DNA of 32,546 bases from Actinomycetes bacterium (GCA_021791675.1 JAJYWE010000025.1:4045-36590), one strand, 5' to 3'. Positions 1,977-18,034 are shown, counted from the stretch's first letter. The notes: generated by a model from the letters alone, not told the origin. Translations and numbers: made by a program.

Positions 1977-4345
1977 CGCCTCGACATCGGCCGAAGCTGG
2001 CGCCGCCGGTCGTCGGAGCAGGCGGCGGGCCTCTCCGTCGCCGTCGCCGCGATGGCTGCCTGGCCGATGCTGATGCCTCCGTCGTTCGGCGGGATCCGCC
2101 GGTGGCGGAGCACGCGTAGTCCGAGCTGCTCGAGACGACTGCCGAGGATCTCGCCGAGTAGGACGTTCTGGAAGACGCCGCCTGTCAGCGCGACCGTGCC
2201 CAGACCCGCTCGTGAGGCGACCTCCGCGGCTGCCGCCGCGCTTGCGGCGGCCAGCGCCTCGTGGAAACCACGCGCGATGGCGGCGGTGTCGACGCCGGCT
2301 CGCGAGTCCGCCACGACTGCCGCCACGAGCCCCCGCGGGTCCAGGAGGACCTCGTCGCCGAGCTCGACGGCCACCTCGTAGTGTCTCGCCGTACCCGCGG
2401 AGCGGGTTCGTGCCGCCATCTCGAGCTCGATGGCCGCCTGGCCCTCGTAGGAGACGCGGCGTCGGAGACCGACGAGTGCCGCCGTCGCGTCGAAGAGCCG
2501 ACCGACCGAGCTGGTGAACGGAAAGCGGCCGGCTCCGGTCGGCCGGACGAGCGCTCCCCACCCGGGCTCGAAGCGCTCCGCCGCGAGCCCGGCCAGCTCC
2601 ACGCCCCCCGCCACGAGCGACCAGGCGAGGGCCATCCGCCAGGGCTCCCGGACGGCGGCGACCCCACCGGGCATCGGGACCCCGAGGAGGTGACCGGCGC
2701 GCCGGAAGCCATCGAGATCGCAGACGAGCAGCTCCCCGCCCCAGAGCGTTCCATCCACTCCGTAGCCGAGCCCGTCGAAGGCCACGCCGACCACGGGACC
2801 GGTCTCCCCGGCGTCGACCAGGCAAGACGCCACGTGCGCGTGGTGATGCTGGACCGGGAAGAGCTGCTCCCCCGAGACCGCGGCGCGCTCCTCTGCGAAC
2901 TTCGTCGAGAGGTACTCCGGATGGAGGTCGTGCGCGAGGAGCGAGGGCCCGATCCCGTAGATCGCGACGAGGTGGTCGACCGCCTGGCGGAACGCCTCCC
3001 AGGCCTCGAGGTGCTCGAGGTCGCCGAGGTGCTGGCTCGCGACGACGGCGTCGCCGACCGTCAGGGCGACGGTCGACTTGAGCTCCGCCCCGAGGGCGAG
3101 GACGGCACGCGCCGCAGGACGAGGCAGGGCGAGCGGAGCCGGTGCGTAGCCCCGCGCACGGCGCTGGAGCTGCAGCCCGGACGGCGTCGCCCGGGCGACG
3201 GAGTCATCGCAGCGAACGTGGATCGGCCGGTTGTGGGAGAGGATCCCCTCCACCAACGGCCCGAGCCGTTCCACGACGTCCTCGTCCCGGAAGACGATCG
3301 GCTCGTCGGAGCGGTTGCCGCTCGTGAGCACGAGCGGGCATCCGGTCCCCTCGAGGAGGAGGTGGTGCAGGGGGGTGTACGGGAGAAACACGCCCAGCTC
3401 CGCGAGGCCCGGCGCAACCGCCCGGGCGACGGGGGCGTCCGGGCGCCGCTCGGCGAGGACGATCGGGCGCTCCCGGCCCGCCAACAGGGCGCGAGCAGGC
3501 CCGTCGAGCGACACGAGCCGCTCCGCTGCAGCGAGGTCCGGCACCATCACCGCGAAGGGCTTGTCCTCGCGCACCTTGCGCCGGCGCAGTGCCTCCACAC
3601 CTGCCTCCGAAGCCGCATCGACCGCCAGGTGGTACCCCCCGATGCCTTTCACCGCCACGACGGCCCCGCGCCGGAGCAACGTGATCGTGCCGCGCAGCGC
3701 AGCGTCACCCTCCGCCTGCTCCTCACCGAGCGGGGAGAGCAGCCGGAGGCGAGGCCCGCACGCCGGACATGCGATCGGCTGGGCATGGAAGCGCCGGTCC
3801 GCCGGGTCCTCGTACTCGGAGCGGCAGGCCGGGCACATCGGGAACCCGGCCATCGTGGTAGCCGGGCGGTCGTAGGGCACCGCGGTCACGATCGTGTAGC
3901 GCGGGCCGCAGTTCGTGCAGTTCGTGAAGGGATACCGCCATCGGCGCGCCGCAGGATCCCGGATCTCGGCGAGGCAGTCGTCGCAGGTCGCGACGTCCGG
4001 GCTGATCGGCACCCGCGCCCCGCCGTCCGCCCGGCTCTGGTCGATCCGGAAGCCCTCGAGGCCGTTCGGGGAAAGGGTGACGCAGCTCACTCCCTCGACC
4101 ACCGCCAGCGGCGGCGACTCCTCGGCCACTCGCCGGGCGAGGGCTGCGAGGACATCCGGGCGACCCTCGACCTCGAGCACGACGCCCGCGGCGTCGTTGC
4201 GGACGAAGCCGGCCAGCCCGAGCTCGGTCGCGAGCCGGTAGACGAACGGTCGGAACCCGACACCCTGCACCGTGCCTCGAATCGTGAGGCGCCAGCGCGC
4301 CAATGGCTGCGCTGCCGACTCGGGAGCCCGGACGGTGCGCACCAC
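1973..4345 (-). CDS. hypF: Carbamoyltransferase HypF, [NiFe]-hydrogenase maturation
   Basis: HypF converts carbamoyl phosphate and ATP to a carbamoyl-adenylate and transfers the carbamoyl group to the C-terminal Cys of HypE, the first step in making the active-site cyanide ligands. All family domains are visible in the 790 residues: an acylphosphatase domain (GTVQGVGFRPFVYRLA, about 24-39); two zinc-finger modules with C121/C124/C143/C146 and C171/C174/C193/C196; a YrdC-like domain (KGIGGYHL near 233); and a Kae1-like carbamoyltransferase domain with HHHAH at 500-504. The gene is the last of the hydrogenase operon, 12 bp after hypE. GTG codons at 4345 and 4342 are both possible starts. The identity is secure. 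Confidence 0.97.
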   Translation of the reverse strand: MVRTVRAPESAAQPLARWRLTIRGTVQGVGFRPFVYRLATELGLAGFVRNDAAGVVLEVEGRPDVLAALARRVAEESPPLAVVEGVSCVTLSPNGLEGFRIDQSRADGGARVPISPDVATCDDCLAEIRDPAARRWRYPFTNCTNCGPRYTIVTAVPYDRPATTMAGFPMCPACRSEYEDPADRRFHAQPIACPACGPRLRLLSPLGEEQAEGDAALRGTITLLRRGAVVAVKGIGGYHLAVDAASEAGVEALRRRKVREDKPFAVMVPDLAAAERLVSLDGPARALLAGRERPIVLAERRPDAPVARAVAPGLAELGVFLPYTPLHHLLLEGTGCPLVLTSGNRSDEPIVFRDEDVVERLGPLVEGILSHNRPIHVRCDDSVARATPSGLQLQRRARGYAPAPLALPRPAARAVLALGAELKSTVALTVGDAVVASQHLGDLEHLEAWEAFRQAVDHLVAIYGIGPSLLAHDLHPEYLSTKFAEERAAVSGEQLFPVQHHHAHVASCLVDAGETGPVVGVAFDGLGYGVDGTLWGGELLVCDLDGFRRAGHLLGVPMPGGVAAVREPWRMALAWSLVAGGVELAGLAAERFEPGWGALVRPTGAGRFPFTSSVGRLFDATAALVGLRRRVSYEGQAAIELEMAARTRSAGTARHYEVAVELGDEVLLDPRGLVAAVVADSRAGVDTAAIARGFHEALAAASAAAAAEVASRAGLGTVALTGGVFQNVLLGEILGSRLEQLGLRVLRHRRIPPNDGGISIGQAAIAATATERPAACSDDRRRQLRPMSRR

Positions 4346-4357
4346 GACCGGGCGACC

Positions 4358-5515
4358 TCAGCAGATCCGTGGGAGGGGATCCCCCACCAGCATGTCCACG
4401 ATGCGTGTGCTGCCGAAAGCGGTCCGCAACACGACGACACCCTCGGGCTCCGCGCGGATCTCGCCGATCAGGGCCGCCTCCGCCCCTCCCGGCTCGGCAC
4501 GGACCGCCGCGAGAGCAGCGTCTGCCTCCTCGGGCGGCACCACGGCGAGAACCTTGCCCTCGTTCGCCACGTAGAGCGGATCGAGGCCGAGCAGCTCGCA
4601 GGCACCCGCGACCGCGGGTCGCACCGGCAGGGCTGCCTCGTCGAGGACCACGGCGAGCTGGCGGTCGCGCGCGAGCTCGTTGCAGACCGTGGCCACCCCA
4701 CCGCGAGTGGGATCGCGACACCACCGGGTGCCGGGAGCCGCCTCGAGGAGGGCCCGTACCAAGGGGGTCACCGGGGCAGTGTCCGAGCAGAGCTCCACCT
4801 CGAGGTCGAGGTCACCCCGCGCCAGCATGACCGCGATCCCGTGGTCCCCCATGGTGCCGGAGAGCAGCACCACGTCTCCGGGTCGCACCGACTCGGCCGC
4901 GAGATCGACCCCGGGTGCGACGGTCCCTACGCCTGCGGTGGTGAGGTAGATCCCATCCGCCGCTCCTGCCCCCACGACCTTCGTGTCGCCGGTGACCACG
5001 GCCACCCCGGCGCCGTCAGCGGCCTCGGCGACGTCAGCCACGATCTCTTTCAGCTCCGCGACGGAGAGCCCCTCTTCGATGACCACCGCGAGCGAGAGCC
5101 ACCGCGGGACTGCCCCCATGACCGCGAGGTCGTTCACGGTCCCGTGCACCGCCAAGTGACCGACCGACCCGCCCGGGAAGCGACGAGGGCTCACGACGAA
5201 GGAGTCGGTGGTGAACGCGAGACGTTCGCCCGGGGCGAGGTCGAGGACCGCCGCGTCTCGAAGCGGGCCCTCGGGACGGCCGAGCCCCTCGAGGAACACC
5301 GCGTCGAGCAACGCCGCCGAGGCCTTGCCTCCGGCACCGTGCGCAAGGGTCACGACGTCGTCCTTGAGGCGCGGGCGGCGGCGGCGGAACGCCTCGATCC
5401 GCCCGAGGACGGCGGCCTCGCTCGAGGACACGCCTCTCGTCCGATTCGGTCCGGACCGATCGTCCTGCTCGGTCCTCCCGGGCGTGCTCGGTCCCGGCGC
5501 GCGTGCCGCCGTCAT
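4358..5515 (-). CDS. hypE: Hydrogenase maturation protein HypE (cyanide ligand synthesis)
   Basis: HypE is an AIR-synthase-like ATPase that dehydrates the S-carbamoyl group on its C-terminal Cys to thiocyanate and donates cyanide to the Fe held by HypC-HypD. The 385-aa protein ends in PRIC, so the essential terminal Cys is present at position 385. Other family signatures are LAHGAGGKAS, FTTDSFVVSP, VNDLAVMGA, VTGDTKVV and DPTRGGVA. The first 35 or so residues form a charged extension not usual for HypE, so an internal start is conceivable. However, ATG 5515 overlaps the preceding SIS-gene stop as ATGA, which supports translational coupling from the long start. Confidence 0.96.
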   Translation of the reverse strand: MTAARAPGPSTPGRTEQDDRSGPNRTRGVSSSEAAVLGRIEAFRRRRPRLKDDVVTLAHGAGGKASAALLDAVFLEGLGRPEGPLRDAAVLDLAPGERLAFTTDSFVVSPRRFPGGSVGHLAVHGTVNDLAVMGAVPRWLSLAVVIEEGLSVAELKEIVADVAEAADGAGVAVVTGDTKVVGAGAADGIYLTTAGVGTVAPGVDLAAESVRPGDVVLLSGTMGDHGIAVMLARGDLDLEVELCSDTAPVTPLVRALLEAAPGTRWCRDPTRGGVATVCNELARDRQLAVVLDEAALPVRPAVAGACELLGLDPLYVANEGKVLAVVPPEEADAALAAVRAEPGGAEAALIGEIRAEPEGVVVLRTAFGSTRIVDMLVGDPLPRIC

Positions 5516-6174
5516 GACGGTCCGAGTGGTCGGAGGGCGGCCTGCACCACCTCCCAGAGCCGCCACGACAGCGCCGCCTGGGTCTCCTGGATCCGGTGGA
5601 TGCTCTGGGAGGGCACCACGAAGCAGTGTTGGACGCTCGGGGAGACGGCCATCTGGCCTCCCTGGTAGCCGGCGAGGCCGACCGTGAGACAGCCTCGCTC
5701 GCACGCCTCGTCGAACGCGAGCAGCAGGTTCTTCGAGCCACCGCTCGTCGAGAAGCCGACGACCATGTCCGAGGGCTCCACCTGCGCGATCACCTGCCGC
5801 AGGAACACCACCTCGAAACCGACGTCGTTGCCGAGCGCTGTGAGCACCGCCAGGTCGTCTGCGAGCGACCGTGCCGGGAGTGGTCTGCCGGCGGGCGGGT
5901 CGCCGAAGAGGGTGACGAGCGACGCCGCATCCGTCGAGCTCCCGCCGTTGCCCATGGCCAGCAGGCGTCCGCCCGCGTCGAAGCGGGTCGCCATCGCCAA
6001 CCCGACCGCGCTCAGCTCGTCCTCGCTCGCAGCGAGCACGTTCGCTCGGAGCGCCGCGCTCTCCGCCGCCTTGGCCTCGGCCGAGCGCGCGAGGTCCTCG
6101 AGCAGTGGACCGGCGTCCCGCTCCGCGGCATCGAGGAACGGGTAGAGGAACCCCGTGCCCCCCGGCGCGCTCAT
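5512..6174 (-). CDS. GmhA-like SIS-domain protein of the hydrogenase operon, probable pseudo-isomerase
   Basis: This 220-aa protein has the sugar-isomerase (SIS) fold of the GmhA/DiaA group: the phosphate-binding stretch GNGGSSTDAAS, then LTALGNDVGFEVVFLRQV, then STSGGSKNLLLAFDEA. Aligned by eye with E. coli GmhA, the sedoheptulose-7-phosphate isomerase, the residues equivalent to H61, E65 and H180 are Ser, Leu and Trp here. Only the equivalent of Q172 (in RIQE) is retained, so it should not act as a metal-dependent isomerase. No heptose pathway gene is nearby. It is coupled by ATGA overlaps to the SIS-HypC fusion upstream and to hypE downstream, so a role in hydrogenase maturation, perhaps as a binding or scaffold protein, is the best inference. 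Automatic annotation would probably call it phosphoheptose isomerase. Confidence 0.88.
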   Translation of the reverse strand: MSAPGGTGFLYPFLDAAERDAGPLLEDLARSAEAKAAESAALRANVLAASEDELSAVGLAMATRFDAGGRLLAMGNGGSSTDAASLVTLFGDPPAGRPLPARSLADDLAVLTALGNDVGFEVVFLRQVIAQVEPSDMVVGFSTSGGSKNLLLAFDEACERGCLTVGLAGYQGGQMAVSPSVQHCFVVPSQSIHRIQETQAALSWRLWEVVQAALRPLGPS

Positions 6175-6956
6175 TCGCCGCTCCCCTCGGCCAGGACCGT
6201 GAGCACGGAGCCCGCGTGGACGAGGACCAGCGACCCGGGCGACACCCCCTCGACGAGGGACGCGTCCGCCCACTCGAGCCCGGTCGCTGCGCGGACCAGG
6301 ACGGCACCGCCTTCGCCGAGGCGGAGGACCTCGACGAGGCGACCCTCGTCGCCACAGGTGACGCAGGCCGGTCCCGAGCAGACCTGCGGCTCCTCGAGGA
6401 GCCCGGGGTGCTCGAAGCAGACGTGGGTCAGCTCCCAGAGGAGGTGGTACGAGAGCACGAACCGGCCCGTGTGGGCGGCCTGGCTCGGCACTTCCCCCTC
6501 CCACCAGAGGACGTGGTCCGCCGCCCCTGGCGCCGGGCGCGGGCCGGCGCCGATCCAGATCGTCGTGAGCCCCCATGCGGGTGCCCGAGCGAGCGCGCGG
6601 CGCGCTGCGGGCTCCTCCGAGGACGCGACGACCACGAGCGCATCCCCAGCGCGACAGAGCGTCCGGAGCCCCGCGACGCCAGCCTCCGCCGAGACGGCGA
6701 CCGCAGGCAGGGCGCGCGTCCCGACGACGACCGGGTGCACGAACTCCACCGCGACGTGGTGGGCGTGGGCGGGCCAGGCCGGCGCGAAGCACCAGAGCGT
6801 CCCACCGTGCGCGAAGCGCCGTGCGAGAGCCAGGGCAGCACCTGCGACGTCGACACCGAAACCCGGTGGCAGCCCGCCGGCGCCAGCGGCGCCGCGCTCC
6901 GCGTCGAGTGCGCCGGCGGGGCCGGCAGCCGACTGCGCCGCGGTCCCGACGCTCAT
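6171..6956 (-). CDS. SIS-like domain fused to a HypC-type chaperone domain
   Basis: This 261-aa protein has two parts. Residues about 35-185 look like a degenerate SIS-type Rossmann domain (GTLWCFAPA, DALVVVASSEEP, GLTTIWIGAG) lacking the usual Ser-rich sugar-phosphate loop. Residues about 193-256 resemble HypC/HupF: CVTCGDEGRLVEVLRL, then ASLVEGVSPGSLVLVHAG. Cysteines C193, C198 and C201 precede the barrel, and H247 falls where HypC has its conserved His. Classical HypC uses a Cys directly after the initiator Met to bind the Fe(CN)2CO unit; here the candidate Cys is internal. It sits between hypD and the second SIS gene, with ATGA overlaps on both sides. Its partners are likely HypD and the neighbouring SIS protein. 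The HypC call rests on pattern and context, with no alignment run. Confidence 0.75.
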   Translation of the reverse strand: MSVGTAAQSAAGPAGALDAERGAAGAGGLPPGFGVDVAGAALALARRFAHGGTLWCFAPAWPAHAHHVAVEFVHPVVVGTRALPAVAVSAEAGVAGLRTLCRAGDALVVVASSEEPAARRALARAPAWGLTTIWIGAGPRPAPGAADHVLWWEGEVPSQAAHTGRFVLSYHLLWELTHVCFEHPGLLEEPQVCSGPACVTCGDEGRLVEVLRLGEGGAVLVRAATGLEWADASLVEGVSPGSLVLVHAGSVLTVLAEGSGE

Positions 6957-8080
6957 GCCCGGGCCCCGACGGACAGCGCTGCCTCCCGGTGGAGCCGGCC
7001 GAAGTTGTAGTACGCGGCGCACGCTCCCTCCGAGGAGACCATGCAGGTCCCGATCGGCGTCTCGGGGGTGCAGGCGGTACCGAACACCTTGCACTGCCAG
7101 GGCTTGATGACCCCCTTCAGCACCTCGCCGCACTGGCAGGCCTTCGGGTCGGCGACCCGGACGCCCGGGACTGCGAAGCGGCGCTCGGCGTCGAAGTCCG
7201 CATAGGCGTCTGCGAGCCGGAGTGCGCTCTGGGAGATGAAGCCGAGCCCCCGCCACTCGAAGTGCGGGCGGAGCGCGAAGACCTCGGCCATGATCGCGAG
7301 CGCCCTCGGGTTTCCCTCCTCCACGACGCAGCGGGTGTACTGGTTCTCCACGTCCGCCCGGCCGGCTGCGCACTGGACCAGCAGCATCTCCACGGCCTGG
7401 AGGATGTCGAGGGGCTCGAAGCCGGCGGTCACCAGCGGCTTACCGTACTGCTCGGCGACGAAGCGGTAGGGCCGCTGGCCGATCACGGTCGAGACGTGCC
7501 CGGGTCCGAGGAACCCGTCCAGCCGGAGGTCGGGAGAGTCCAGGATCGCCTTGATCGGCGGCACGATCGTCACGTGGTTGCAGAAGACGCTGAAGTTCGA
7601 CACGCCCTCCGCCTTCGCGCGGCGCAGCGTCACCGCCGTCGACGGTGCCGTGGTCTCGAAGCCCACGGCGAAGAACACCACCTCGCGACCGGGGTTGTCC
7701 ACGGCGAGGCGGAGCGCGTCGAGCGGCGAGTAGACGAACCGGACATCGGCGCCGCGGGCCTTGGCGTCGAGCAGGCTCCCCGAGGAGCCTGGCACGCGCA
7801 TCATGTCCCCGAAGGTCGTGAACAGCACGCCGGGCTGCTCGGCAACCGCGATCGCGTCGTCGATCCGGCCCATCGGGATGACGCAGACCGGGCAGCCCGG
7901 CCCGTGGACGAGCTCGACCCCGTCGGGGAGGAGGTGCTCGATCCCGTGTCGGTAGATCGTGTGGGTGTGTCCCCCGCAGACCTCCATGAAGGCGAAGCGC
8001 TTCCCGTTGGACAGCGTCGCGATCCGTCGGACGAGCGCGCGCGCGGCGGCCGGGTCTCGGTACTCGTCGACGAAGCGCAT
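6953..8080 (-). CDS. hypD: Hydrogenase maturation protein HypD
   Basis: HypD is the Fe-S scaffold that, with HypC, holds the Fe(CN)2CO precursor and drives cyanide attachment using HypE. The protein is about 375 aa, the normal family length. It contains CGGHTH (C35), GPGCPVC (C63, C66), the GFETTAP loop, GPGHVS and a C-terminal [4Fe-4S] region rich in Cys (CQCGEVLKG, WQCKVFGTAC, GTCMVSSEGACAAYYNFGR). I chose ATG 8080 because family members start with M-K/R-FVDEYRD. A GTG directly before it (8083) would also overlap the upstream stop and cannot be excluded. The 3' end overlaps the next gene as ATGA. Confidence 0.97.
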   Translation of the reverse strand: MRFVDEYRDPAAARALVRRIATLSNGKRFAFMEVCGGHTHTIYRHGIEHLLPDGVELVHGPGCPVCVIPMGRIDDAIAVAEQPGVLFTTFGDMMRVPGSSGSLLDAKARGADVRFVYSPLDALRLAVDNPGREVVFFAVGFETTAPSTAVTLRRAKAEGVSNFSVFCNHVTIVPPIKAILDSPDLRLDGFLGPGHVSTVIGQRPYRFVAEQYGKPLVTAGFEPLDILQAVEMLLVQCAAGRADVENQYTRCVVEEGNPRALAIMAEVFALRPHFEWRGLGFISQSALRLADAYADFDAERRFAVPGVRVADPKACQCGEVLKGVIKPWQCKVFGTACTPETPIGTCMVSSEGACAAYYNFGRLHREAALSVGARA

Positions 8081-8310
8081 CACGCCACCTTCCTGAGGTT
8101 GACCCCATCCCCGCTTGCGACGCGCTCGGCGAGCACGCCGCCCCCCCGGCTCACGAGCTCAGCCGCCGCCGCGAGACCGCCCGCGAGCAGGGCGCGCACC
8201 TCCTCCGATTGCGCGATCACCGTGACGGCCTCGCGGAGCTCCTCGAGCCCCTCCCTCCCTGCCCGAGTGCCGAGGAGATAGCCCGCCAGGAACCCGATCA
8301 TTGCGCCCAT
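8080..8310 (-). CDS. Small YtxH-like membrane protein in the hyp operon
   Basis: This 76-aa protein starts MGAMIGFLAGYLLGTRAG, a short hydrophobic segment followed by the GTRAGRE motif common in small actinobacterial YtxH-like proteins. A charged helical region (REGLEELREAVTVIAQSEE) and an Ala-rich helix follow. It probably sits in or on the membrane through the N-terminal segment. A good Shine-Dalgarno (GGAAGG about 8 bases ahead) supports ATG 8310, and its stop overlaps the hypD start. Function is unknown. Its place between hypC and hypD suggests a link to maturation or to membrane association of the enzyme, but this is only positional. Confidence 0.75.
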   Translation of the reverse strand: MGAMIGFLAGYLLGTRAGREGLEELREAVTVIAQSEEVRALLAGGLAAAAELVSRGGGVLAERVASGDGVNLRKVA

Positions 8311-8401: not shown

Positions 8402-8674
8402 TCAGGCGATCCGTGACTCCCGCACGAGCGCCACCTCGTCCCGGTAGGCCTGCCCCATCAGCTGGAGCCCCTCGAGCGCGCGCGCCGCCTCCGCCTCGTC
8501 GATCACGGCCATCGCGAAGCCGACGTGGATGAGCACCCAGTCACCGGGTTCGATGGCGACGTCGTCGAGCAAGCCGATGTTGATGTTCCGCCGAACCCCT
8601 GCCACCTCGACCTTTGCCAGCTGGTTGTTCGCGTCGACCAGCTCTACGACCTGTCCTGGTATCCCGAGACACAT
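8402..8674 (-). CDS. hypC: Hydrogenase maturation chaperone HypC
   Basis: HypC carries the Fe(CN)2CO group, with HypD, and delivers it to the hydrogenase large-subunit precursor. The 90-aa protein begins MCLGIPGQVVEL with the required Cys2. It has the conserved His in GDWVLIHVGFAMAVID (H50) and the usual small beta-barrel length. The start is fixed by the MC motif. It follows hypA by 11 bp and precedes a hairpin. A second HypC-like domain lies further down the same operon, fused to a SIS domain, so this is one of two. Confidence 0.97.
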   Translation of the reverse strand: MCLGIPGQVVELVDANNQLAKVEVAGVRRNINIGLLDDVAIEPGDWVLIHVGFAMAVIDEAEAARALEGLQLMGQAYRDEVALVRESRIA

Positions 8675-8685
8675 GTCCGCTCCTC

Positions 8686-9021
8686 TCACGCTCGGTACTC
8701 GATGCGTTCCAACACGAGCTCGTCGCCTCCACGCTCCTCGACCTCCGGCGACCCGCAGCGCTCGCACGCCAGCACGTGGTCCGTCGCCTCGAAGGTCGCC
8801 CCGCAGCGCTCGCAGCGTGCCGCGACCGGCAGCACGACGAGCTCCGGGACCGCTCCGGCCGCGACGCTCCCTTCGGCGGCGAGCGCGAAGGACTGCGCGA
8901 ACGCGTCGGGGTGGAAGTGGTGGAGGCAACCCACCCGCACCCGGACGGCGGCGACGCTGCGACCGTTGGCGCGTCGCTCGAGCGCGTCCACGATGGCCGT
9001 GCAGACCCCGAGCTCATGCAT
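8686..9021 (-). CDS. hypA: Nickel-insertion protein HypA
   Basis: HypA delivers nickel to the hydrogenase large subunit, normally together with the GTPase HypB. The 111-aa protein starts MHELGVCTAIV, with the nickel-binding N-terminal Met-His-Glu. It carries the structural zinc site as two CERC motifs (about 70-73 and 86-89). Its start overlaps the stop of the preceding YceI gene by 8 bp. hypB, which is usually its neighbour, is not found anywhere in this window. Confidence 0.96.
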   Translation of the reverse strand: MHELGVCTAIVDALERRANGRSVAAVRVRVGCLHHFHPDAFAQSFALAAEGSVAAGAVPELVVLPVAARCERCGATFEATDHVLACERCGSPEVEERGGDELVLERIEYRA

Positions 9022-9526
9022 CGGAGCCCGCCCTTGCGACCAGCTCGACCCGGACCTCGACTTCCGGGTGGACCTTCGCCATGAGGATCTTCGGCGGCTC
9101 CATGCCGAAGTCGCGGATGTCGAAGACGTGCGCGCCCTCCAGATGCACCTCGCCGTCAGCGAGCCGGAGCACCATCTCGTCCTCCGCGGGCTGGCTGGAC
9201 CCCCGAAAGGTGACCACCCCCGAGACGAGGTAGTGTCCGCCGGCTGCCGGGCGGAGCTCGCGCAGCTCGCCCGAGATGGTCGGATACCGCCGTACGTCCA
9301 CCCGCCGTTGCAGCTCGCGGTCGTAGAGCGGGTTCCCAGAGCGCAGCGCCGAGACCGCGAGCTCGACACGCCCCCGATCCGCCGCGAGACCCCCCGGCTC
9401 CGAGGCCGTCCCGTCGAGCTCGATGAAGCCGTGCAGCCCCGTCGCCTCGGCGTGGATCGGATGGAGACTGGAGCGCGCCTCCACCGAGACGCGCGACACC
9501 GCTGGGTCGATCTCGAAACGCGGCAT
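9014..9526 (-). CDS. YceI-type lipid-binding-fold protein within the hydrogenase operon
   Basis: This 170-aa protein matches the YceI fold: an N-terminal FEIDPAVSRVSVEAR strand, a central SALRSGNPLYDRELQRRVDV segment, RRYPTISGEL, and an HVFDIRDFGMEPPKI ending. YceI proteins are beta-barrels that bind long amphipathic molecules such as polyisoprenoid quinones. No signal peptide is present, so it should be cytoplasmic, unlike many secreted YceI proteins. The segment S-GNPL-D-EL-RRV--RRYP and the DIR-FGM-P ending also occur in the YceI domain of the PadR fusion at 16838-18034, so the two appear to belong to one subfamily. It starts 4 bp after the microprotein gene. A role in handling quinone or lipid for this hydrogenase is a hypothesis. 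Confidence 0.85.
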   Translation of the reverse strand: MPRFEIDPAVSRVSVEARSSLHPIHAEATGLHGFIELDGTASEPGGLAADRGRVELAVSALRSGNPLYDRELQRRVDVRRYPTISGELRELRPAAGGHYLVSGVVTFRGSSQPAEDEMVLRLADGEVHLEGAHVFDIRDFGMEPPKILMAKVHPEVEVRVELVARAGSDA

Positions 9527-9635: not shown

Positions 9636-10315
9636 GCCCCTACCTCCTCTCCCTCGGCCGCCACCCCGGCAGCTCCTTCGTTCCCTCCGAGGACCGCCGC
9701 CACCACGGCGGCTCCGTCGCCTGCTGCCGACGACGCAGCCGCCATCGGCCCGGGCCCCCTTCCCTCGCCGTTCGTCGGGACGCCCGCGCTCTCCCCGTTC
9801 ACCCGCAGCAGAGCGGCCACCGTCTCGCGCACAGCGGCGACGGCGGGTCCGATCGCGTCCCGGACCGGAGCCGAGAGGCCGATGCCCTCTCCGAGCTGTG
9901 CCGGCTCGCAACCGATGAGGACGAGGTGGCGCACGTGGCCCCCCATCGCCCTCGCCGAGCGGAGGACGGCGACCGGGTCCATCGCGTGTGCGTCCAGGCC
10001 GACGGCGGAGGCCCCCGCCCCGCCGGGCCGGGGCTGGTTCGCGTCGTCCGGAGCCGCCAGATCCCGGTCGGGGGCCACGACGCGCACGGTTCCCGCAGCG
10101 TCGCCGGCAGGCTGGGCGTCGACCAGGACGACGGCGTCGTAGTCCTCGAGCAGCTCGTAGGCGAGGTGGACGCCCCGGATCCCGAAGTCCTCGATGCGGA
10201 CGCTCTCGGGCAGCTCGCTCCGGTCGGCAGCGAGGCGCCGGACGACCTCGGGCCCGAACCCGTCGTCGGACAGGAAGATGTTGCCGATCCCGGCGACGAG
10301 CACACGCGGGCTCAC
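9632..10315 (-). CDS. [NiFe]-hydrogenase maturation endopeptidase (HupD/HybD family)
   Basis: This enzyme removes the C-terminal peptide of the large subunit after nickel insertion. Family signatures are VAGIGNIFLSDDGFG near the N-terminus, VVLVDAQPAG, LDAHAMDP and IGCEP. By comparison with E. coli HybD, the nickel-sensing residues are D18 (Glu in HybD), D66 and H110. The catalytic-type core spans about 1-170; residues 175-227 are an Ala/Gly-rich tail of unknown use. GTG 10315 overlaps the upstream stop as GTGA. Its natural substrate is presumably the large subunit encoded at 13745-15526, which has a 24-residue tail beyond the final His. Confidence 0.93.
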   Translation of the reverse strand: MSPRVLVAGIGNIFLSDDGFGPEVVRRLAADRSELPESVRIEDFGIRGVHLAYELLEDYDAVVLVDAQPAGDAAGTVRVVAPDRDLAAPDDANQPRPGGAGASAVGLDAHAMDPVAVLRSARAMGGHVRHLVLIGCEPAQLGEGIGLSAPVRDAIGPAVAAVRETVAALLRVNGESAGVPTNGEGRGPGPMAAASSAAGDGAAVVAAVLGGNEGAAGVAAEGEEVGA

Positions 10316-12609
10316 CAGCGCGCCCCACGGAGGCCACGGAGCTCGCCGAGCAGCGCCTCGATGTCCGGGTCGCTCGGAGCCACCCGGACGTCACTCGCGT
10401 CGCCCAGGGCCCCGCCCGCCGGTGTCAGGTCGGGGTCGCCGGATGCGGACAGGGGGACGACCTCCTCTGGCGCGAAGAAGAGGGAGCGCCCGTACCACTC
10501 GTGGAGCTCGGCCGCCGGATCGTCCTCGACGACAACCCCCAGGTGACACTCCCCCTCGAGCGTCCGGTAGACGCCGGTGACCCTGGCCACCCTGCCGCGC
10601 AGGAAGAGGTCCTGGGCGTCGGCCCGCCGGTTCGGTTGCAGCAGGACCCGGCTCCCGACGCCAACGGTGACCCCCGCCACCCTGACCGGCAACGCCTCCT
10701 CGCTCCCAGGCTGGCTGGCGACGGACGGAGCGCCGTCGATCCCGTCACTGGGAGCGCCCCTCGGGGCGGCAGCCCGATCGCCGCCCGCAACGCTCGAAGC
10801 CCGCGCGCCGAGCCGCTCGGCGACGGGGCGGACCCTCGCGTGCAGCCGCTCGAAGTCGACCGCCGTCAGTTCCTCGCAGCCGGAGAGGACAGCCGCGGCT
10901 CTCGGGTCGGTCGCCCGCACCTCCCGCTTCTCGTCGTCCGTGAGCGTGAGGACGCGCAGGGCGAGGATCTCGTCGATCTCCGTGGCGTCGTACATCGCCT
11001 GCGCGCTCTCGGGGGCGATGGCCGGGAAGTCCGAGAGGACGATCGGCGACGCGAGGACGGTCCGGGGCCGCTCCTCGTCACCGACGAGCACCGGGAAGAG
11101 CCCGTCGTGGAGCGCGCCAGCCGCCTCCGGGAGATCCGCTGGCCGGTCCAGCGCGGAGAGGAACACGCCGCCGTCGATCGCGAAGAGCGCGTGGACGCCG
11201 ACGACGCTGCGCCGGACCACGTCGTCACGGTGGGCCGCCGGACCGCTCCATGCCGAGGTGTTCGCGACCTCGACCCGCACCCACCAACCCCCTCCGGAGG
11301 CGAGCGGCCCTGCCGACGCGACGACCTGTAGGTCGACCGGAGCGGCCTCCCACGCAGCAACACACCGTCGTCCGCCTGCGTCCCTTCCGAGCTCCTGTTC
11401 CCGGCGAGCACCGCCCAGCCGGAGCGACCGAGTCGAGACGGCACAAACGGGCCCGAGCGGCGCGACGCCCGGTGCACCACCCACTCCCGGCACGGGAGCG
11501 TCGCGCCCGTCGCCGGTTCGGGAGGCCTGCGCAGGCGCCGGCGCCCCCGGCGCTGCCACCTGGAGCACGAGGTCGACCTCGTGGCTCACTCCCTCGTCGA
11601 ACGCCGTCCAGAGCTGGCCGTCGACCTCCAACGACTCCACCGCCCGGCGCGTCTGGTCCTCCTCCTCGATCCACAGCGAGCGCGCGGTGAGGGTGAGGAA
11701 GCGGACCCGCACCGCGACCCGCGTCCCCACGGCGGCGCGAAACAGGCCGTCGACGCGGGCGTCGGCGCGCTCCGCTCCGCTCGCCGCGGCATACTCCGGC
11801 GGTGCCAGCACCCCGAACTGCCAGCGAAGGTGGTTCTTCCGCGCCGACGCACGATAGGGATAGAGCACGTAGCCCTCGTAGCAGATTGCGTCCGCGACGC
11901 TGCGCGCCGCGTCGAGCGCGACGCCGAGCGGGTCGGCCCTCGACGCCGGATCGGGCTCCTCGGTTGGGGACCCCGAGCCCGCACCGGCGGCACCGAGCAA
12001 CGACTCGAGCGCGCCCTCCCACGTGGGGATTGCCTGGCGGGCCTTGAACGCGCCGAGCGCCCCGAGCGTCTCGCGCGAGAGCCGCAGCCATCCCTCACCG
12101 GGGAAGAAGTGGTCCATTGCGCTCCGCCACGTCGAGACGGGGAGCACGAAGCGCGCCTCCGCATCCCACGAGATCGGTTCCACGGAGAGCCTGCCCTCGA
12201 CCTCCCGGAACACCGTGCCGGAGAAGAGCAGGACGACCGGGACCGTCCCGTGCTCGAGCCCGGCGAGGAGCTTCGCGTGCGCCACCTCGAGGTCGTAACT
12301 GCACGGCAGGGAGAGGGTCGTCTCCGTGCTCCCCTCGAAGCACCCGAGCGCGGTCGTGACCTGGGCCCAGCGCAGCGGCTTGAGGCTACGCGACCACTGC
12401 GTCGGCGGGCCGAACAGCTCGAGCACGTGTGCCCGCTCGGCCGCGGTGAAGTCGTGGCCCCGCGGGTCGATCTCGACGGCAGTGCGCAACACCACGGCGT
12501 GCACGGGGCGCGAGTCGGGCGTGGTCACCCGGAGGCGCAACGCGAGCGCCGGTGCCGCCGCGTATGGCTCGGGCTCGACGCCGAGCACGGAGAACGAGAG
12601 CTCAGCCAC
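10312..12609 (-). CDS. DUF6084-type hydrogenase-operon protein fused to a second conserved domain
   Basis: This 765-aa soluble protein has two regions. Residues about 1-215 resemble DUF6084, a family of unknown function found in actinobacterial hydrogenase operons (AELSFSVLGVEPEPYAAAP, FGPPTQWSRSLKPLRW, CSYDLEVAHAKLLAGLEHG, WRSAMDHFFPGEGWLRL). After an acidic linker, a second region runs from about 235 to the end. It includes CYEGYVLYPYRASARKNHLRW, FGVLAPPEYA, VANTSAWSG, SPIVLSDFPAIAPES and a C-terminal part with RRADAQDLFLRGRVARV and LHEWYGRSLFFAPEEVVPL. I recall such sequences as a separate conserved gene in other hydrogenase clusters, which would make this a fusion. No catalytic motif is evident. 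GTG 12609 overlaps the upstream gene by 8 bp. Confidence 0.8.
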   Translation of the reverse strand: MAELSFSVLGVEPEPYAAAPALALRLRVTTPDSRPVHAVVLRTAVEIDPRGHDFTAAERAHVLELFGPPTQWSRSLKPLRWAQVTTALGCFEGSTETTLSLPCSYDLEVAHAKLLAGLEHGTVPVVLLFSGTVFREVEGRLSVEPISWDAEARFVLPVSTWRSAMDHFFPGEGWLRLSRETLGALGAFKARQAIPTWEGALESLLGAAGAGSGSPTEEPDPASRADPLGVALDAARSVADAICYEGYVLYPYRASARKNHLRWQFGVLAPPEYAAASGAERADARVDGLFRAAVGTRVAVRVRFLTLTARSLWIEEEDQTRRAVESLEVDGQLWTAFDEGVSHEVDLVLQVAAPGAPAPAQASRTGDGRDAPVPGVGGAPGVAPLGPVCAVSTRSLRLGGARREQELGRDAGGRRCVAAWEAAPVDLQVVASAGPLASGGGWWVRVEVANTSAWSGPAAHRDDVVRRSVVGVHALFAIDGGVFLSALDRPADLPEAAGALHDGLFPVLVGDEERPRTVLASPIVLSDFPAIAPESAQAMYDATEIDEILALRVLTLTDDEKREVRATDPRAAAVLSGCEELTAVDFERLHARVRPVAERLGARASSVAGGDRAAAPRGAPSDGIDGAPSVASQPGSEEALPVRVAGVTVGVGSRVLLQPNRRADAQDLFLRGRVARVTGVYRTLEGECHLGVVVEDDPAAELHEWYGRSLFFAPEEVVPLSASGDPDLTPAGGALGDASDVRVAPSDPDIEALLGELRGLRGARW

Positions 12610-13729
12610 CGCTCAGCTCCACGAGCGGGCGCGCCCGTGCCCCGAGGTCGGCGAACACCTCGTCGAGCAGGCCCGCAGCCTCCTCGCCACCGGCGACTCC
12701 CTGCCACGCGCTGCGGAGGCGACCGACGAGCTCGTAGCAGGCGTCGACCGGGACCACGAACGCCTCGATCCCGACAGAGGTGACTCGCGCGAGCACCGCC
12801 TCCACCCCCGGAGCGACGCTTCCGAGCTGCGCCGAAGCATCGACCGCCTCCTCCCAGGCCCCGAGTGGCAGCTCCGACTCGACCGCCCCGGCCGGACCGG
12901 GGTAGAACGCCGCCACCCGCCCACCCTCGGCTCCGGAAAGGAAGAACGCCACGTCGACCGGGATCCCCAGGCGCGCCCAGAGGGCGGGTGGGATCGTCCC
13001 GGTCGGCAGCCGGAGGTAGCGGTCCGACACGAGGCGGTACCGCCCTCGTGCCGCTCCCTCCTGGCTGAACAGCAGCGCGCAGGCTCGGCAGGTGCAACGC
13101 AGCGCCGAGTGCTCGAGATCGGCGACGTGGCGATGCCCGGCTTCGAGGGCCGCGCCGCAGAGCTCACAACCTGCCGACTCGGCAGGGCGCGGGCGCGTGA
13201 GTCCCCCCGCGTCCTCGCGCCTCGGGCCGCGACGCAGGGTCACCGGCGTCCCGACCTCGACGACGTGAACGTCGACGTCATCGAGATCGGGCACCGCCCC
13301 GCGCACGGCGGCGCGCACGGCGTGGGCGAGCGCCCCTCGACTGCCGGCTCCGGGGCCCACCGGGTGGATCTCGACGATCGCGGTTCGACGAGCCTCGTCC
13401 ACGGCCTCGATCGTCGCCGGTGCGACGCCCAGCCGACGTCCGATCTCGTCGAGTGCCGTCGAGACGCGGGACGCGAGCGGGACGGGGTGGAGGTCGTGGA
13501 CGAGCAGCGCGCTCGCGACGACCTCGTCCTGCGCGAGCTCCTCAAGCACTCCGGCGCAACCGTCGCGGCCCTGCTCGGCGAGGCGCCGGACGATCCGCCC
13601 GAGCACCTCCCCGTAGAAGCTCGTCACGGCGGCGAGGAGCTCGTCAGCCGCCGTTGCCACCTCCGGCCCACCCAGGTCGGTGAGCGCCTCGAGCGCCCGT
13701 TCGACCTGCGCACCCGGGTCTTCGTGCAC
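12602..13729 (-). CDS. Degenerate NifU-like domain fused to DUF5947 (hydrogenase-associated)
   Basis: This is a 375-aa protein, 15 bp downstream of the large-subunit gene. Residues about 28-160 resemble the NifU C-terminal (Nfu) domain as found in actinobacterial hydrogenase operons (LHPVPLASRVSTALDEIGRRLG, then a helix ending VPDLDDVDVHVVE). The segment where Nfu has its CxxC cluster motif reads PVGPGAGSRGALAHAV and has no Cys. Residues about 186-375 match DUF5947, with a CELCG...CTCRACALLF pattern (C188, C191, C212, C214, C217) that could hold a metal. A small-cluster rubredoxin-like role for DUF5947 is possible but unproven. GTG 13729 was chosen as the first start after the upstream stop. 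Confidence 0.82.
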   Translation of the reverse strand: MHEDPGAQVERALEALTDLGGPEVATAADELLAAVTSFYGEVLGRIVRRLAEQGRDGCAGVLEELAQDEVVASALLVHDLHPVPLASRVSTALDEIGRRLGVAPATIEAVDEARRTAIVEIHPVGPGAGSRGALAHAVRAAVRGAVPDLDDVDVHVVEVGTPVTLRRGPRREDAGGLTRPRPAESAGCELCGAALEAGHRHVADLEHSALRCTCRACALLFSQEGAARGRYRLVSDRYLRLPTGTIPPALWARLGIPVDVAFFLSGAEGGRVAAFYPGPAGAVESELPLGAWEEAVDASAQLGSVAPGVEAVLARVTSVGIEAFVVPVDACYELVGRLRSAWQGVAGGEEAAGLLDEVFADLGARARPLVELSGG

Positions 13730-13744
13730 CGTGGCCGCTTCTCC

Positions 13745-15526
13745 TCACGCCTCGTCGAGCGTGTGCGCGACGGTCGGGGAGTGGACCTTGCGCAGCTCCT
13801 TCCCGCCCCCGAGGTACATGTGGACCCCGCAGGGAAGGCACGGATCGAAGCTGCGTACCGACCGCATGATGTCGATGCCCTTGAAGTGCTCGCGGTCGTT
13901 CTCCTCGAAGATGGGGGTGTTCTGCACCGCGTCCTCGTAGGGACCCGGGGTGCCGTAGACGTCTCGCGGGTTCGCGTTCCAAGGCGTCGGCGGGTAGGGG
14001 TGGTAGTTGGCGATCTTCCCGTCCCGGATCACCATGTGGTGCGAGAGCACACCGCGCACCGCCTCGGTGAAGCCACAGCCGATCCCCTCGTCGGGAACCT
14101 CGAACGGCTCCCAGGTCTTCGTCCTGCCGGCACGGACCTCGGCGAGCGCCTGCTCCATGAAGTGCAAGGCGCAGGCGGCGGCGTAGGCCTGGAAGTAGGT
14201 GCGCGCCCGGTCTCGCTCGATCGTGTTCGACCACTGGGGGATCTTCCACTCGAGCTGGACCTCGGGCTTCAGCGCGGTCTTCGGGAGGTTGATCACGACG
14301 CTGTGCCCGGTCGCCTTCACGTAGCCGATGTCGACGAGCCCCGACAGCGCGGTCGACCACAGCCGGGCGAGAGGGCCCCCACCGGTGTCGAGCGCGAGGT
14401 GGTCCGTCCCGTCGAACCAGCGGGGCGACATCACCCAGCTGTAGTTCCCGTCGAAGTCGCGCTTCTGCGGCTGGGGGTTCGTGTGCTGGTTCCAGGGGTG
14501 CCGCCGGTCGACCGGGTTCCCGAGCGGGTCGCGCGTCACGAACATCTCCTGGCCCTCCCAGTCGTCGTAGAAGGAGTGCCCGAGGAGGATCCGGATGCCG
14601 AGGTTGATGTCGACGAGGTCGTTCGTCACGAGCTTCCCGTCCACGACCACTCCCGGGGTCACGAACATCTTCCGGCCCCAGTCGGTCATGTCCCGGTAGG
14701 CGAAGTTGCAGACCTCGGGATCCTGGAAGCTTCCCCAACACCCGAGCAGCGTGCGTCGCAAGCCGACCTGCTCGTAGCCCGGGAGTGCCTGGTAGAAGAA
14801 GTCGAAGAGGTCGTCGTGCATCGGGACGACACGCTTCATGAACTCGACGTAGCGCATGAGCCGGCTCAGGTAGTCGGTGAAGAGCTGGATCGTCGCTGTC
14901 GTCCCGACCCCGCCCGGATAGAGCGTCGAGGGGTGCACGTGGCGACCCTCCATCAGGCAGAACATCTCCCGCGTCGAGCGGCTCACCTGGAGCGCCTCCC
15001 GGTAGAACTCGCCCTCGAAGGGGTTGAGCGAGCGCATGATGTCGGCGATGGTGCGGTAGCCATGGTCGCCAGCGTGCGGTGACTCGGTCCGCTCGGCGAG
15101 CTCGAGCACCCCGGGGTTCGTCTCCCGTACCATCTTCTCGCAGAAGTCCACGCCGACGAGGTTCTCCTGGAAGATGTTGTGGTCGAACATGTACTCCGCA
15201 GCCTCGCCGAGGTTCACGATCCACTCGCCGAGATGCGGCGGCTTCACGCCGTAGGCCATGTTCTGTGCGTAGCAGGAGCAGGTTGCGTGGTTGTCGCCAC
15301 AGATGCCACAGATGCGACTGGTGATGAAGTGCGCGTCCCTCGGGTCCTTGCCCTTCATGAAGATGCTGTAGCCACGGAAGATCGACGACGTCGAGTGGCA
15401 CTCCGCCACCGTCCGCTGGCGAAAGTCGATCTTCGTGTAGATCCCGAGGCTGCCGACGATCCGGGTGATCGGATCCCAGGCCATCTCCACCAGGTCGTTG
15501 TTCGCCGTGTCCGGCTGCACTGTCAT
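13745..15526 (-). CDS. hhyL: Group 1h [NiFe]-hydrogenase large subunit
   Basis: This catalytic subunit oxidises H2 at a Ni-Fe(CN)2CO centre. The 593-aa protein has the L1 motif SRICGICGDNHATCSCYAQ (C73, C76) in the form typical of group 1h enzymes, the actinobacterial high-affinity type. It also has the L2 motif DPCLPCGVH (C563, C566, H569). A 24-residue C-terminal extension follows H569 and is expected to be cut by the endopeptidase encoded downstream. A strong Shine-Dalgarno (GAGGAGGGAG) precedes ATG 15526. The gene lies 27 bp after the small subunit. Group 1h enzymes scavenge trace H2 and feed the respiratory chain, often during starvation. The subgroup rests on motif recognition, without a tree. 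Confidence 0.97.
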   Translation of the reverse strand: MTVQPDTANNDLVEMAWDPITRIVGSLGIYTKIDFRQRTVAECHSTSSIFRGYSIFMKGKDPRDAHFITSRICGICGDNHATCSCYAQNMAYGVKPPHLGEWIVNLGEAAEYMFDHNIFQENLVGVDFCEKMVRETNPGVLELAERTESPHAGDHGYRTIADIMRSLNPFEGEFYREALQVSRSTREMFCLMEGRHVHPSTLYPGGVGTTATIQLFTDYLSRLMRYVEFMKRVVPMHDDLFDFFYQALPGYEQVGLRRTLLGCWGSFQDPEVCNFAYRDMTDWGRKMFVTPGVVVDGKLVTNDLVDINLGIRILLGHSFYDDWEGQEMFVTRDPLGNPVDRRHPWNQHTNPQPQKRDFDGNYSWVMSPRWFDGTDHLALDTGGGPLARLWSTALSGLVDIGYVKATGHSVVINLPKTALKPEVQLEWKIPQWSNTIERDRARTYFQAYAAACALHFMEQALAEVRAGRTKTWEPFEVPDEGIGCGFTEAVRGVLSHHMVIRDGKIANYHPYPPTPWNANPRDVYGTPGPYEDAVQNTPIFEENDREHFKGIDIMRSVRSFDPCLPCGVHMYLGGGKELRKVHSPTVAHTLDEA

Positions 15527-15553: not shown

Positions 15554-16627
15554 CTAGCGCCAGCCGCCGCGGTAGCCCGTGGTGAGCTCGGGCCCGCGTA
15601 CTCGCCAGCTCGGTTCCTCGTCGACTGTCTTCACCGTGACGCGCCGCAGCGCCCGGATCACGTTCCCGTACAGTCCGCTCGCTGCGGTGGAAACGCGCGC
15701 TCCGGGAGGCTCCGCCATGAAGGGCATGAACTTGTCCGGGAAGCCCGGCATGGTGCAACCGATGCAGATCCCCCCGACGTTCGGGCAGCCCCCGATCCCG
15801 TTCATCCAGCCACGCTTCGGGACGTTGCACTTGACGACCGGGCCCCAACAGCCCAGCTTCACGATGCACTTGCGCGAGCCGTACTCGTTCGCGAACTCGC
15901 CCTGCTCGTAGTAGCCGGCTCGATCGCACCCCTCGTGCACCGTGCTCCCGAAGAGCCAGGTCGGCCGGAGCGACTCGTCGAGCGGGATCGCGGGAGCCTG
16001 CCCGGTCGCCTGGTAAAGGAGGTAGAGGATCGTCTCCGAGAGGTTGTCCGGTTGGATCGGACAGCCCGGGACGCAGACGATCGGGATCCCGGCCTTGGAC
16101 TTCCAGCCCCAGCCGAGGTAGTCCGGCACACCCATGGCACCGGTCGGGTTCCCCGCCATCGCGTGGATGCCGCCGTATGCCGCACACGTCCCGACCGCGA
16201 GCACGGCGAGGGCCTTCGGTGCCAACCGGTCCAACCATTCGCTCGTCGTCATCGGTTGGTCCGTCGCGGGGTCGTTCCCGAACCCGCACCAGTACCCCTC
16301 CCGCTTGATCGCCTCGTTGGGGATCGAACCCTCCACCACCAGCACGAAGGGCTCGAGCTCCCCGCGGTCGGCCTTGAAGAACCACTCGATGAAGTCGTCC
16401 GCCCCACCGACCGGCCCACACTCGAAGTCGATGAGCGGCCAGTGCACGGCGATCTTCGGGAGCCCGGGCAGCGCCCCGAGCGCTATCTCCTCGATGCTCG
16501 GCTGCGTGGCGGCCGTCAACGCGACGGAGTCACCGTCGCAACTCAGCCCTGCGTTGATCCACAGGACGTGGATCACCGGTTCGTCGCTGACCATCCGGTC
16601 CGCCGCCACCTCGGTCGTCGTGCCCAC
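15554..16627 (-). CDS. hhyS: Group 1h [NiFe]-hydrogenase small subunit
   Basis: This subunit carries three Fe-S clusters that move electrons from the active site. In the proximal motif WINAGLSCDGDSVAL, C30 is kept but the second canonical Cys is D33. That gives the 3Cys/1Asp ligation described for the Ralstonia eutropha actinobacterial-type hydrogenase and seen in group 1h. Other cluster segments are VGTCAAYGG, VPGCPIQPDN, VHEGCDRAG, CIVKLGCWGP and GGCPNVGGICIGC. The 357-aa protein has no twin-arginine signal peptide, so it stays in the cytoplasm. No cytochrome b gene is adjacent, so the electron acceptor is open. GTG 16627 has AGGAGG about 7 bases upstream. It is the first structural gene of the operon. 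Confidence 0.97.
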   Translation of the reverse strand: MGTTTEVAADRMVSDEPVIHVLWINAGLSCDGDSVALTAATQPSIEEIALGALPGLPKIAVHWPLIDFECGPVGGADDFIEWFFKADRGELEPFVLVVEGSIPNEAIKREGYWCGFGNDPATDQPMTTSEWLDRLAPKALAVLAVGTCAAYGGIHAMAGNPTGAMGVPDYLGWGWKSKAGIPIVCVPGCPIQPDNLSETILYLLYQATGQAPAIPLDESLRPTWLFGSTVHEGCDRAGYYEQGEFANEYGSRKCIVKLGCWGPVVKCNVPKRGWMNGIGGCPNVGGICIGCTMPGFPDKFMPFMAEPPGARVSTAASGLYGNVIRALRRVTVKTVDEEPSWRVRGPELTTGYRGGWR

Positions 16628-16837: not shown

Positions 16838-18034
16838 TCAGGGCGGTCCGGCGACCGCCTCGGCTTCGACGTGCAGGGCCAGGCGGACGTCGGGGTACAG
16901 CTTGAACAGCGGCATCGTCGGGACAGCCATGCCGAAGCGACGGATGTCGACGATGTGCGATCCTGTCACGGTCATCATGACGAGCCCCGGTTGACGGGGT
17001 GCGACGGCGAGCGTGCTCCCCGCCAGGCCAGCCACCTCCTCGATCGTGCCCGCCCCGCGCCACGACCTCGGGGCGTGCACCGTCGCCGTGACCGTCCCGG
17101 CGAGGGTGCACGGGACGCCGTGCATGGTCACGGTCCCGGTGATCTGGTAGCAGTTCCCGTCGCCGATCCGGGTCGCTGTTGCAAGCCGGACTTCGACGAA
17201 GGGGTAGCGCCGGGCCTCCACCCGTCGCACCAGCTCCTGGTCGAACAGTGGGTTTCCCGAGGTGAGGCTTGCGACACGCGCACGGAGCGTCGCGACCGGG
17301 GGGGGCTCCACCGCCACCAACCCCTCCGCGAGCTCCACGGCGATCGAGCCTTCGAGCTGGTCCGTGCTGAAGGCGATCGGTCCCACGTTCGACCGCGCCT
17401 CGACCACCAGGCTCGACCGGCTCCCGACGACCCGGAAGACCGCAGGGCCCGACAGCCAGTCCGCCAGAGCCGGAGCGGCCGCCTCGCCCGCGGCCACAGC
17501 CGTCCCGGCTGCTCGCGCGAGGGGAGCCGGGCGCAACGAGGCCGCTACCGCCTGACCCTGCCGCATGGCAAGGAGCGGGTCGGTGAGGTCGGGACCGAGC
17601 TCGGCGAGTCGCCGGCCGTTGCAGTACCAGTAGCGCTGGAGGACGCCCTCCAGCAGGTCGCGCTCCCGAGCCACCACGGACATCCAGGCCTCGAGGGCCT
17701 GCTGGCCGGCGGTGGTCAGCGCGTAGACCCGGCGCGTCGAACCGGCGGTCGGGGCCTCGGCGCGGCCCTCGAGGAGCCCGTCCCGTTCGAGGTCGGCGAG
17801 CGCGCGATAGACCGCGGTGCGCTCGATCCGGGCGAGCCCGAGCGCCGCGAGGCCGGTGACGAGCCGGTACCCGTGCTGGGGCTCCTCGGCGACGAGCAGG
17901 AGCAGGGCAGGGTAGAGGAAGCGCCGCGGGGGAGCCAGGTCGAAGTTGCACCGGGTCGCCGGCACCCGGTCCGGTGGGCTCGGCCAGACGTCCACCGCAG
18001 CGTCGGCGATCGGCCGCCCATCCGAGCGTGGCAT
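16838..18034 (-). CDS. PadR-type transcription regulator fused to a YceI lipid-binding-fold domain
   Basis: This 398-aa protein joins two families. Residues about 36-125 are a PadR winged helix (RRFLYPALLLLVAEEPQHGY, IERTAVYRALADLERDGLLEG, then the wing RRVYALTTAGQQALEAW). A helical linker covers about 125-195. Residues about 197-393 form a YceI domain (FRVVGSRSSLVVEARS, TSGNPLFDQELVRRVEARRYP, GSHIVDIRRFGMAVPTMPLFKLYPDV). YceI barrels bind isoprenoid quinones and related lipids, so the fusion suggests a ligand-responsive repressor. ATG 18034 follows a good GGGGAG site. It is the gene immediately upstream of the hydrogenase genes (210-bp gap, same direction) and diverges from an MFS gene. Either could be its target, and autoregulation is likely for PadR proteins. 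Confidence 0.87.
   Translation of the reverse strand: MPRSDGRPIADAAVDVWPSPPDRVPATRCNFDLAPPRRFLYPALLLLVAEEPQHGYRLVTGLAALGLARIERTAVYRALADLERDGLLEGRAEAPTAGSTRRVYALTTAGQQALEAWMSVVARERDLLEGVLQRYWYCNGRRLAELGPDLTDPLLAMRQGQAVAASLRPAPLARAAGTAVAAGEAAAPALADWLSGPAVFRVVGSRSSLVVEARSNVGPIAFSTDQLEGSIAVELAEGLVAVEPPPVATLRARVASLTSGNPLFDQELVRRVEARRYPFVEVRLATATRIGDGNCYQITGTVTMHGVPCTLAGTVTATVHAPRSWRGAGTIEEVAGLAGSTLAVAPRQPGLVMMTVTGSHIVDIRRFGMAVPTMPLFKLYPDVRLALHVEAEAVAGPP

Follow-up and report, generated by a model that had tools for sequence, protein, structure and literature searches.

A Cys-less, NifU-like HhyE fused to DUF5947 in a group 1h [NiFe]-hydrogenase operon

We have found that the gene at positions 12602–13729 joins in one chain an HhyE-type NifU-like protein and DUF5947; the window, which is the whole stretch of DNA analysed, has 32,546 nucleotides. 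The HhyE half has a degenerate Nfu core with no Cys. The gene stands directly behind hhyS-hhyL, which code for a group 1h [NiFe]-hydrogenase, a group that contributes to the soil sink for atmospheric H2. On balance, and with somewhat better than even confidence, we read the protein as an assembly or docking accessory of HhySL, whose Nfu core would be free of any cluster. The features of this region are the following:

15554–16627 (−): hhyS, group 1h small subunit (PF14720, PF01058)
13745–15526 (−): hhyL, large subunit of the group 1h [NiFe]-hydrogenase, with its two NiFe-ligand motifs intact
13741–13745 (−): likely ribosome-binding site AGGAG, which overlaps the stop codon of hhyL
12602–13729 (−): fused gene, HhyE-type NifU-like half and DUF5947, 375 aa
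13478–13729 (−): N-terminal helical domain of HhyE, residues 1–84 (conservation; helices in the AF2 model)
13259–13477 (−): Nfu-like core, degenerate and Cys-free, residues 85–157 (HMM and fold; Pfam NifU negative)
13316–13363 (−): site of GSCDGCPSS in homologues, residues 123–138, here PVGPGAGSRGALAHAV
13169–13258 (−): linker, residues 158–187
12635–13168 (−): DUF5947 domain, residues 188–365 (PF19372, E 2.6e-60; AF2 pLDDT 87.6)
13079–13168 (−): putative metal motif of DUF5947, C188xxC191, H199xH201, C212xC214xxC217 (alignment A3)
10312–12609 (−): fusion of DUF6084 (PHG068-like) with a PHG069-like protein, 765 aa
9632–10315 (−): hydrogenase maturation protease (TIGR00072, PF01750)

The best PDB match of HhyL is 5aa5_C (E reported as 0, 1112 bits), which is the large subunit HofG of the actinobacterial-type enzyme of R. 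eutropha.

Positions 12602–13729 make sense only as one long frame. It starts with a GTG codon, about 10 nt from AGGAG, and its codon-position bias spans both halves. The linker stands where the stop and start of two separate genes, and any rubredoxin/Rieske-like domain, would be found. The source genome is a draft, with 149 contigs and 91% complete, and an indel artefact was considered. Near the junction there is only one homopolymer of six bases, a G6 at 13203–13208: with an error of one or two bases in it DUF5947 would lack any start codon, so that a plain homopolymer artefact does not account for the fusion. A GTGA found inside the residues TPVT was examined as an old stop/start junction and judged to be due to chance; in frame, TPVTLRR fits the usual tail of HhyE.

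An Nfu pattern had been described for the N-terminal half in the earlier note, and its motifs are indeed present: LHPVPLASRVSTALDEI in residues 80–96, PVGPGAGSRGALAHAV in 123–138 and PDLDDV in 147–152. The whole protein, searched against Pfam, NCBIfam and PDB sequences, gave no match in its NifU half, and for this reason we have used family-specific profiles. The Pfam NifU profile (PF01106) gives no match at E ≤ 1 with the whole protein and none with the N-terminal half alone. An HMM of Cys-bearing HhyE only, from which the window sequence was excluded, matches the fused protein with E 3.6e-24; none of 200 shuffled copies was among its matches. The similarity covers the helical domain and the Nfu core, the latter being weak when taken alone (E about 7e-4). 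The HhyE alignment, used as a profile, matches plant and human NFU structures (2z51, E 8.6e-24), and these profile searches relate the region to both HhyE and Nfu. The two halves of the protein were modelled separately; an alignment of the whole fusion had misplaced the HhyE rows. In the AF2 model of the HhyE half (pLDDT 83.5) there are helices followed by a beta-beta-alpha-beta arrangement. Its best fold matches in the PDB (Foldseek) are 3cq1 and 2cu6 with E about 1e-3, and 3lno with 4e-3. We take the three to be classed in SCOP under the Fe-S cluster assembly superfamily, together with the C-terminal domain of NifU. A fold of Nfu/DUF59 type appears probable, partly on the strength of AF2 and of the relatives. 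Considering together the HMM match, the NFU profile matches and the AF2/Foldseek results, we identify the N-terminal half as an HhyE whose Nfu core is degenerate.

The absence of Cys at the CxxC site is confirmed: where relatives have GSCDGCPSS, the fused protein has PVGPGAGSRGAL. There are 0 Cys in the whole Nfu core (residues 85–157), and the sole Cys before DUF5947 is C58, in the helical part. With the ligand Cys absent, the Nfu module would be unable to bind a cluster through a CxxC, as had been claimed. A CxxC hidden by a frameshift or an alternative frame was rejected, as none is found in the other two frames of this strand. A CxxC-bearing HhyE elsewhere in the genome was rejected as well: the two NifU matches (L001, L002) cover the Nfu core only.

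To place this gene among its homologues we have 108 usable HhyE-DUF5947 loci, taken from named genomes, relatives at the order, class and phylum level, Acidobacteriota and plasmids. The CxxC is kept in 77 of them, and its absence is thus not general in the family. Where HhyE has a C-terminal rubredoxin/Rieske-like domain, the CxxC is kept in all 61 cases (60 scored by script, plus L004, which has a clipped start and was corrected by eye). The 47 HhyE with no such domain are divided: 16 keep the Nfu CxxC and 31 are without it, a class which includes CxC, CxxxC and single-Cys forms. CxxC-less HhyE are found in Actinomycetota, Acidobacteriota and Pseudomonadota. Core Cys are completely absent in the fused protein, in PHG066 of Cupriavidus necator and in L018, L023, L057, L058 and L068. 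The 31 are made up of 28 separate genes and three fusions with DUF5947, each in a different genome: the gene studied here, L058 and L061. The earlier note had asked whether the loss of Cys goes with fusion. All three fusions are CxxC-less, but so are the 28 unfused HhyE, PHG066 included, and fusion is rejected as the cause. The absence of the C-terminal domain is a better correlate of Cys loss than fusion (Fisher p 3e-14, calculated before the correction of L004 and with related sequences that are not independent).

The association is strong by count, with few independent events. The DUF5947 tree requires at least 12 changes for the CxxC, 17 for the C-terminal domain and two for fusion; in the HhyL tree (71 loci) the fewest changes are six, six and three. 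Contrasts on well-supported branches all go in one direction, but they are few (p 0.06 and 0.25 in pair tests). Loss of the Nfu CxxC is thus commoner than fusion and has happened several times. The closest HhyL relative of this operon (92% identity, G153) has an unfused, CxxC-less HhyE, which suggests that in this lineage the Cys were lost before fusion, with a tree placement that is not firm. In many loci the HhyE and DUF5947 genes abut or overlap, so that a small indel is enough to fuse them.

Two loci are peculiar. The fused protein of L061 (G506) has at the CxxC site a stretch rich in Gly, Ser and Cys, GSGCGSGCGSGG, and Streptomyces and Kitasatospora relatives (L033, L043, L049) carry GGCGC; a stretch of this type is possibly another metal site. 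In L034 (Vicinamibacterales) DUF5947 is found directly behind hhyL in a group 1h operon, and there is no recognisable helical or Nfu region of HhyE.

The two parts of HhyE differ in what they conserve. In Cys-bearing HhyE the Nfu core is the best-conserved region, with a mean pairwise identity, after redundancy removal, of 0.57–0.58, as compared with 0.42–0.43 in the helical domain. In CxxC-less HhyE the values are 0.33 and 0.39, respectively. The loss of Cys is thus accompanied by decay of the Nfu core and not of the helical domain. One may ask whether the core, or perhaps the whole HhyE half, is a functionless relic carried along by the fusion with DUF5947. The core has indeed few conserved positions, and L056 has lost it entirely, with the helical domain kept. 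However, the helical motif around D90, H103 and P104 is found in 25 of 25 CxxC-less rows, the coding bias mentioned above extends through both halves of the fused gene, and there are CxxC-less HhyE, such as PHG066, which survive as unfused genes of their own. We consider a relic improbable. It is even less probable that other ligands in the core still hold a metal or a cluster, or that the core and DUF5947 form a common site in the folded protein. Several relatives have CxC, CxxxC or a single Cys at the site, and some of these could bind metal in a different way; but the cores of the fused protein, PHG066 and L058 are devoid of Cys, and the alignment of CxxC-less HhyE has no conserved core residues able to replace the Cys ligands. 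A structural or docking role, proposed when the gene was first described, appears as the best reading of this degenerate Nfu-type module.

A closely similar system is found in C. necator H16, a laboratory strain that has been studied well. The order of genes in pHG1 is hofK, hofG, a NifU family protein of 192 aa, DUF5947, DUF6084, a hypothetical protein and a protease. In the published naming hofK is PHG064, hofG is PHG065, PHG066-069 are of unknown function and PHG070 is the protease (PMC4377017). From this order PHG066 corresponds to HhyE and PHG067 to DUF5947. Both genes were among the top 50 in that experiment, and PHG066 is strongly expressed (PMC4377017). PHG066 has SGRLQGKHAS at the CxxC site and 0 Cys in the core; it adjoins the hydrogenase of solved structure (5AA5), and in our literature search we found no paper which remarks on its lack of Nfu Cys. 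The likeness is close: both species have a short HhyE with no Nfu Cys, and next to it DUF5947, DUF6084, the PHG069 protein and the protease are arranged identically. They differ in that the genes are separate in C. necator and fused here, and in that PHG066 matches Pfam NifU (E 7.4e-12), while the fused protein does not.

HhyE of M. smegmatis (MSMEG_2718), which we have judged from the Mycolicibacterium septicum locus L040, shares the position behind hhyL, the helical domain, the Nfu-type core and the DUF5947 neighbour. HhyE has been described with a CxxC in its NifU domain and with a C-terminal domain with two CxxC; the fused protein has neither and is joined to DUF5947, although truncated HhyE have already been published (PMC6883350). 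HucE, a related NifU-like accessory of group 2a hydrogenases with about 27% identity to HhyE, serves Huc and keeps the CxxC and a Rieske motif as published (PMC6883350), in contrast with the fused protein. A different case is that of the plant plastid proteins NFU1-3, whose second NFU domain is redox-inactive and CxxC-less, and is kept in a working protein (PMC5890173, PMC7851846). Domain 2 of 2z51 is such a plant NFU domain, and it aligns with the HhyE profile. However, NFU1-3 have an active NFU domain besides, and their function is iron-sulphur transfer in plastids. In the H2s strain of M. bryophila, the gene in the HhyE position (B1812_08940), unfused as drawn, was noted with no further analysis: no NifU domain was found in it, though it resembles its NifU-like neighbours (PMC12319191).

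The DUF5947 half is clearly recognised (PF19372, residues 188–365, 203.5 bits with a cut-off of 25, profile positions 2–176 of 177). It had been said to keep five Cys: there are six (188, 191, 212, 214, 217 and 331), and five of them are in the motif CxxC-x7-HxH-x10-CxCxxC. This motif is conserved in alignment A3, where loci with and without Nfu Cys are mixed. It is present whether or not HhyE keeps its Cys; it is thus an independent feature, and there is no sign that metal binding has moved from the Nfu core to DUF5947, as had been supposed. Any metal in DUF5947 is itself presumed. In the order studied, genomes with HhyL at 66% identity or more have DUF5947 in 17 of 20 cases (the HhyL and DUF5947 draws differ by three genomes), and in two of the three exceptions HhyL is only present as contig-end fragments. 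No genome of the order without HhyL-1h has it.

As regards function, HhyE of M. smegmatis is essential for Hhy activity (Islam et al. 2019, PMC6883350). Its hhyE and hucE mutants have no activity even with an artificial dye as acceptor (PMC6883350), a result which concerns a Cys-bearing HhyE; we have found in the literature no experiment on a Cys-less one. The same authors allow both electron relay and assembly as the role of HhyE (PMC6883350). On native gels HhyE runs together with HhyL and HhyS (PMC6883350), and this would agree with a stable relay subunit as well. Purified Huc has three subunits and reduces menaquinone directly (Grinter et al. 2023, PMC10017518); the text of that paper does not speak of HucE. 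This result and the inactivity of the mutants with dye speak for assembly rather than relay. The repeated loss of the HhyE cluster Cys makes an obligatory relay through its Nfu domain unlikely, and it is also unlikely that holding a cluster is the essential job of HhyE.

The main rival to an assembly or docking role is a relay through DUF5947. The HhyE half would only dock, the electrons of HhyS would pass to a metal centre in the CxxC-HxH-CxCxxC motif and from there to menaquinone, and fusion would make docking permanent. It has in its favour that in R. eutropha the role of electron acceptor was proposed for PHG067, which by gene order is DUF5947, and that MSMEG_2717, DUF5947 by position, was named a candidate acceptor (PMC6883350). 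The restriction of DUF5947 to group 1h genomes of the order and the conserved C/H motif also agree with it. Nevertheless the motif resembles a zinc knuckle as much as a redox site, DUF5947 has no PDB relative by sequence or fold, and the lack of a terminal relay alone would not explain why HhyE mutants are inactive even with dye. We find this relay doubtful.

The fused gene corresponds to the PHG066-PHG067 pair in a single chain, and its product would be an assembly or docking accessory of HhySL. HhyE would work, and dock, through its helical domain. The Nfu core may still fold and, carrying no cluster, serve as a spacer or scaffold, by analogy with the second NFU domain of NFU1-3. Fusion would tether DUF5947 to the hydrogenase, and the job of the protein would probably be late assembly or stabilisation of HhySL rather than an obligatory iron-sulphur relay. 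A more general proposal, which we put forward tentatively, is that HhyE is not at heart an iron-sulphur protein: the helical domain and DUF5947 would form the conserved accessory core of group 1h, and the Nfu cluster and the domain with two CxxC a single dispensable add-on, repeatedly lost.

These features have a bearing on published work. The case for HhyE as electron acceptor leans partly on conserved cluster motifs (PMC6883350); they are missing in many operons, including that of the structurally solved C. necator enzyme, and the relay model is weakened. The Cys-bearing, Cys-less and fused forms are natural variants with which relay and assembly could be told apart, and the existence of fusions suggests that HhyE and DUF5947 act as a pair.

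The rest of the operon has some features of its own. The next gene is also a fusion, so that four accessory genes have become two here. Its DUF6084 part has 35% identity to PHG068 and its second part 34% to PHG069; the corresponding genes are separate, some of them overlapping, in 119 of 119 other retrieved loci scored. Adjoining hhyS we find a PadR-family regulator fused to a YceI-like domain (16838–17953, minus strand; PF03551 E 4e-16, PF04264 E 1.5e-6), and there is a second YceI gene at 9014–9526. Behind the accessory genes a maturation cluster extends over 1973–8083 (minus strand), with HypF, a HypE-like protein with an AIRS domain, a HypD-like ORF and a protein with a SIS domain, of which the C. 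necator cluster has one too. A normal HypC is found at 8402–8665, and the protein coded at 6171–6962 (minus strand) resembles HypC weakly in its C-terminal part (PF01455, E 0.002, below cut-off).
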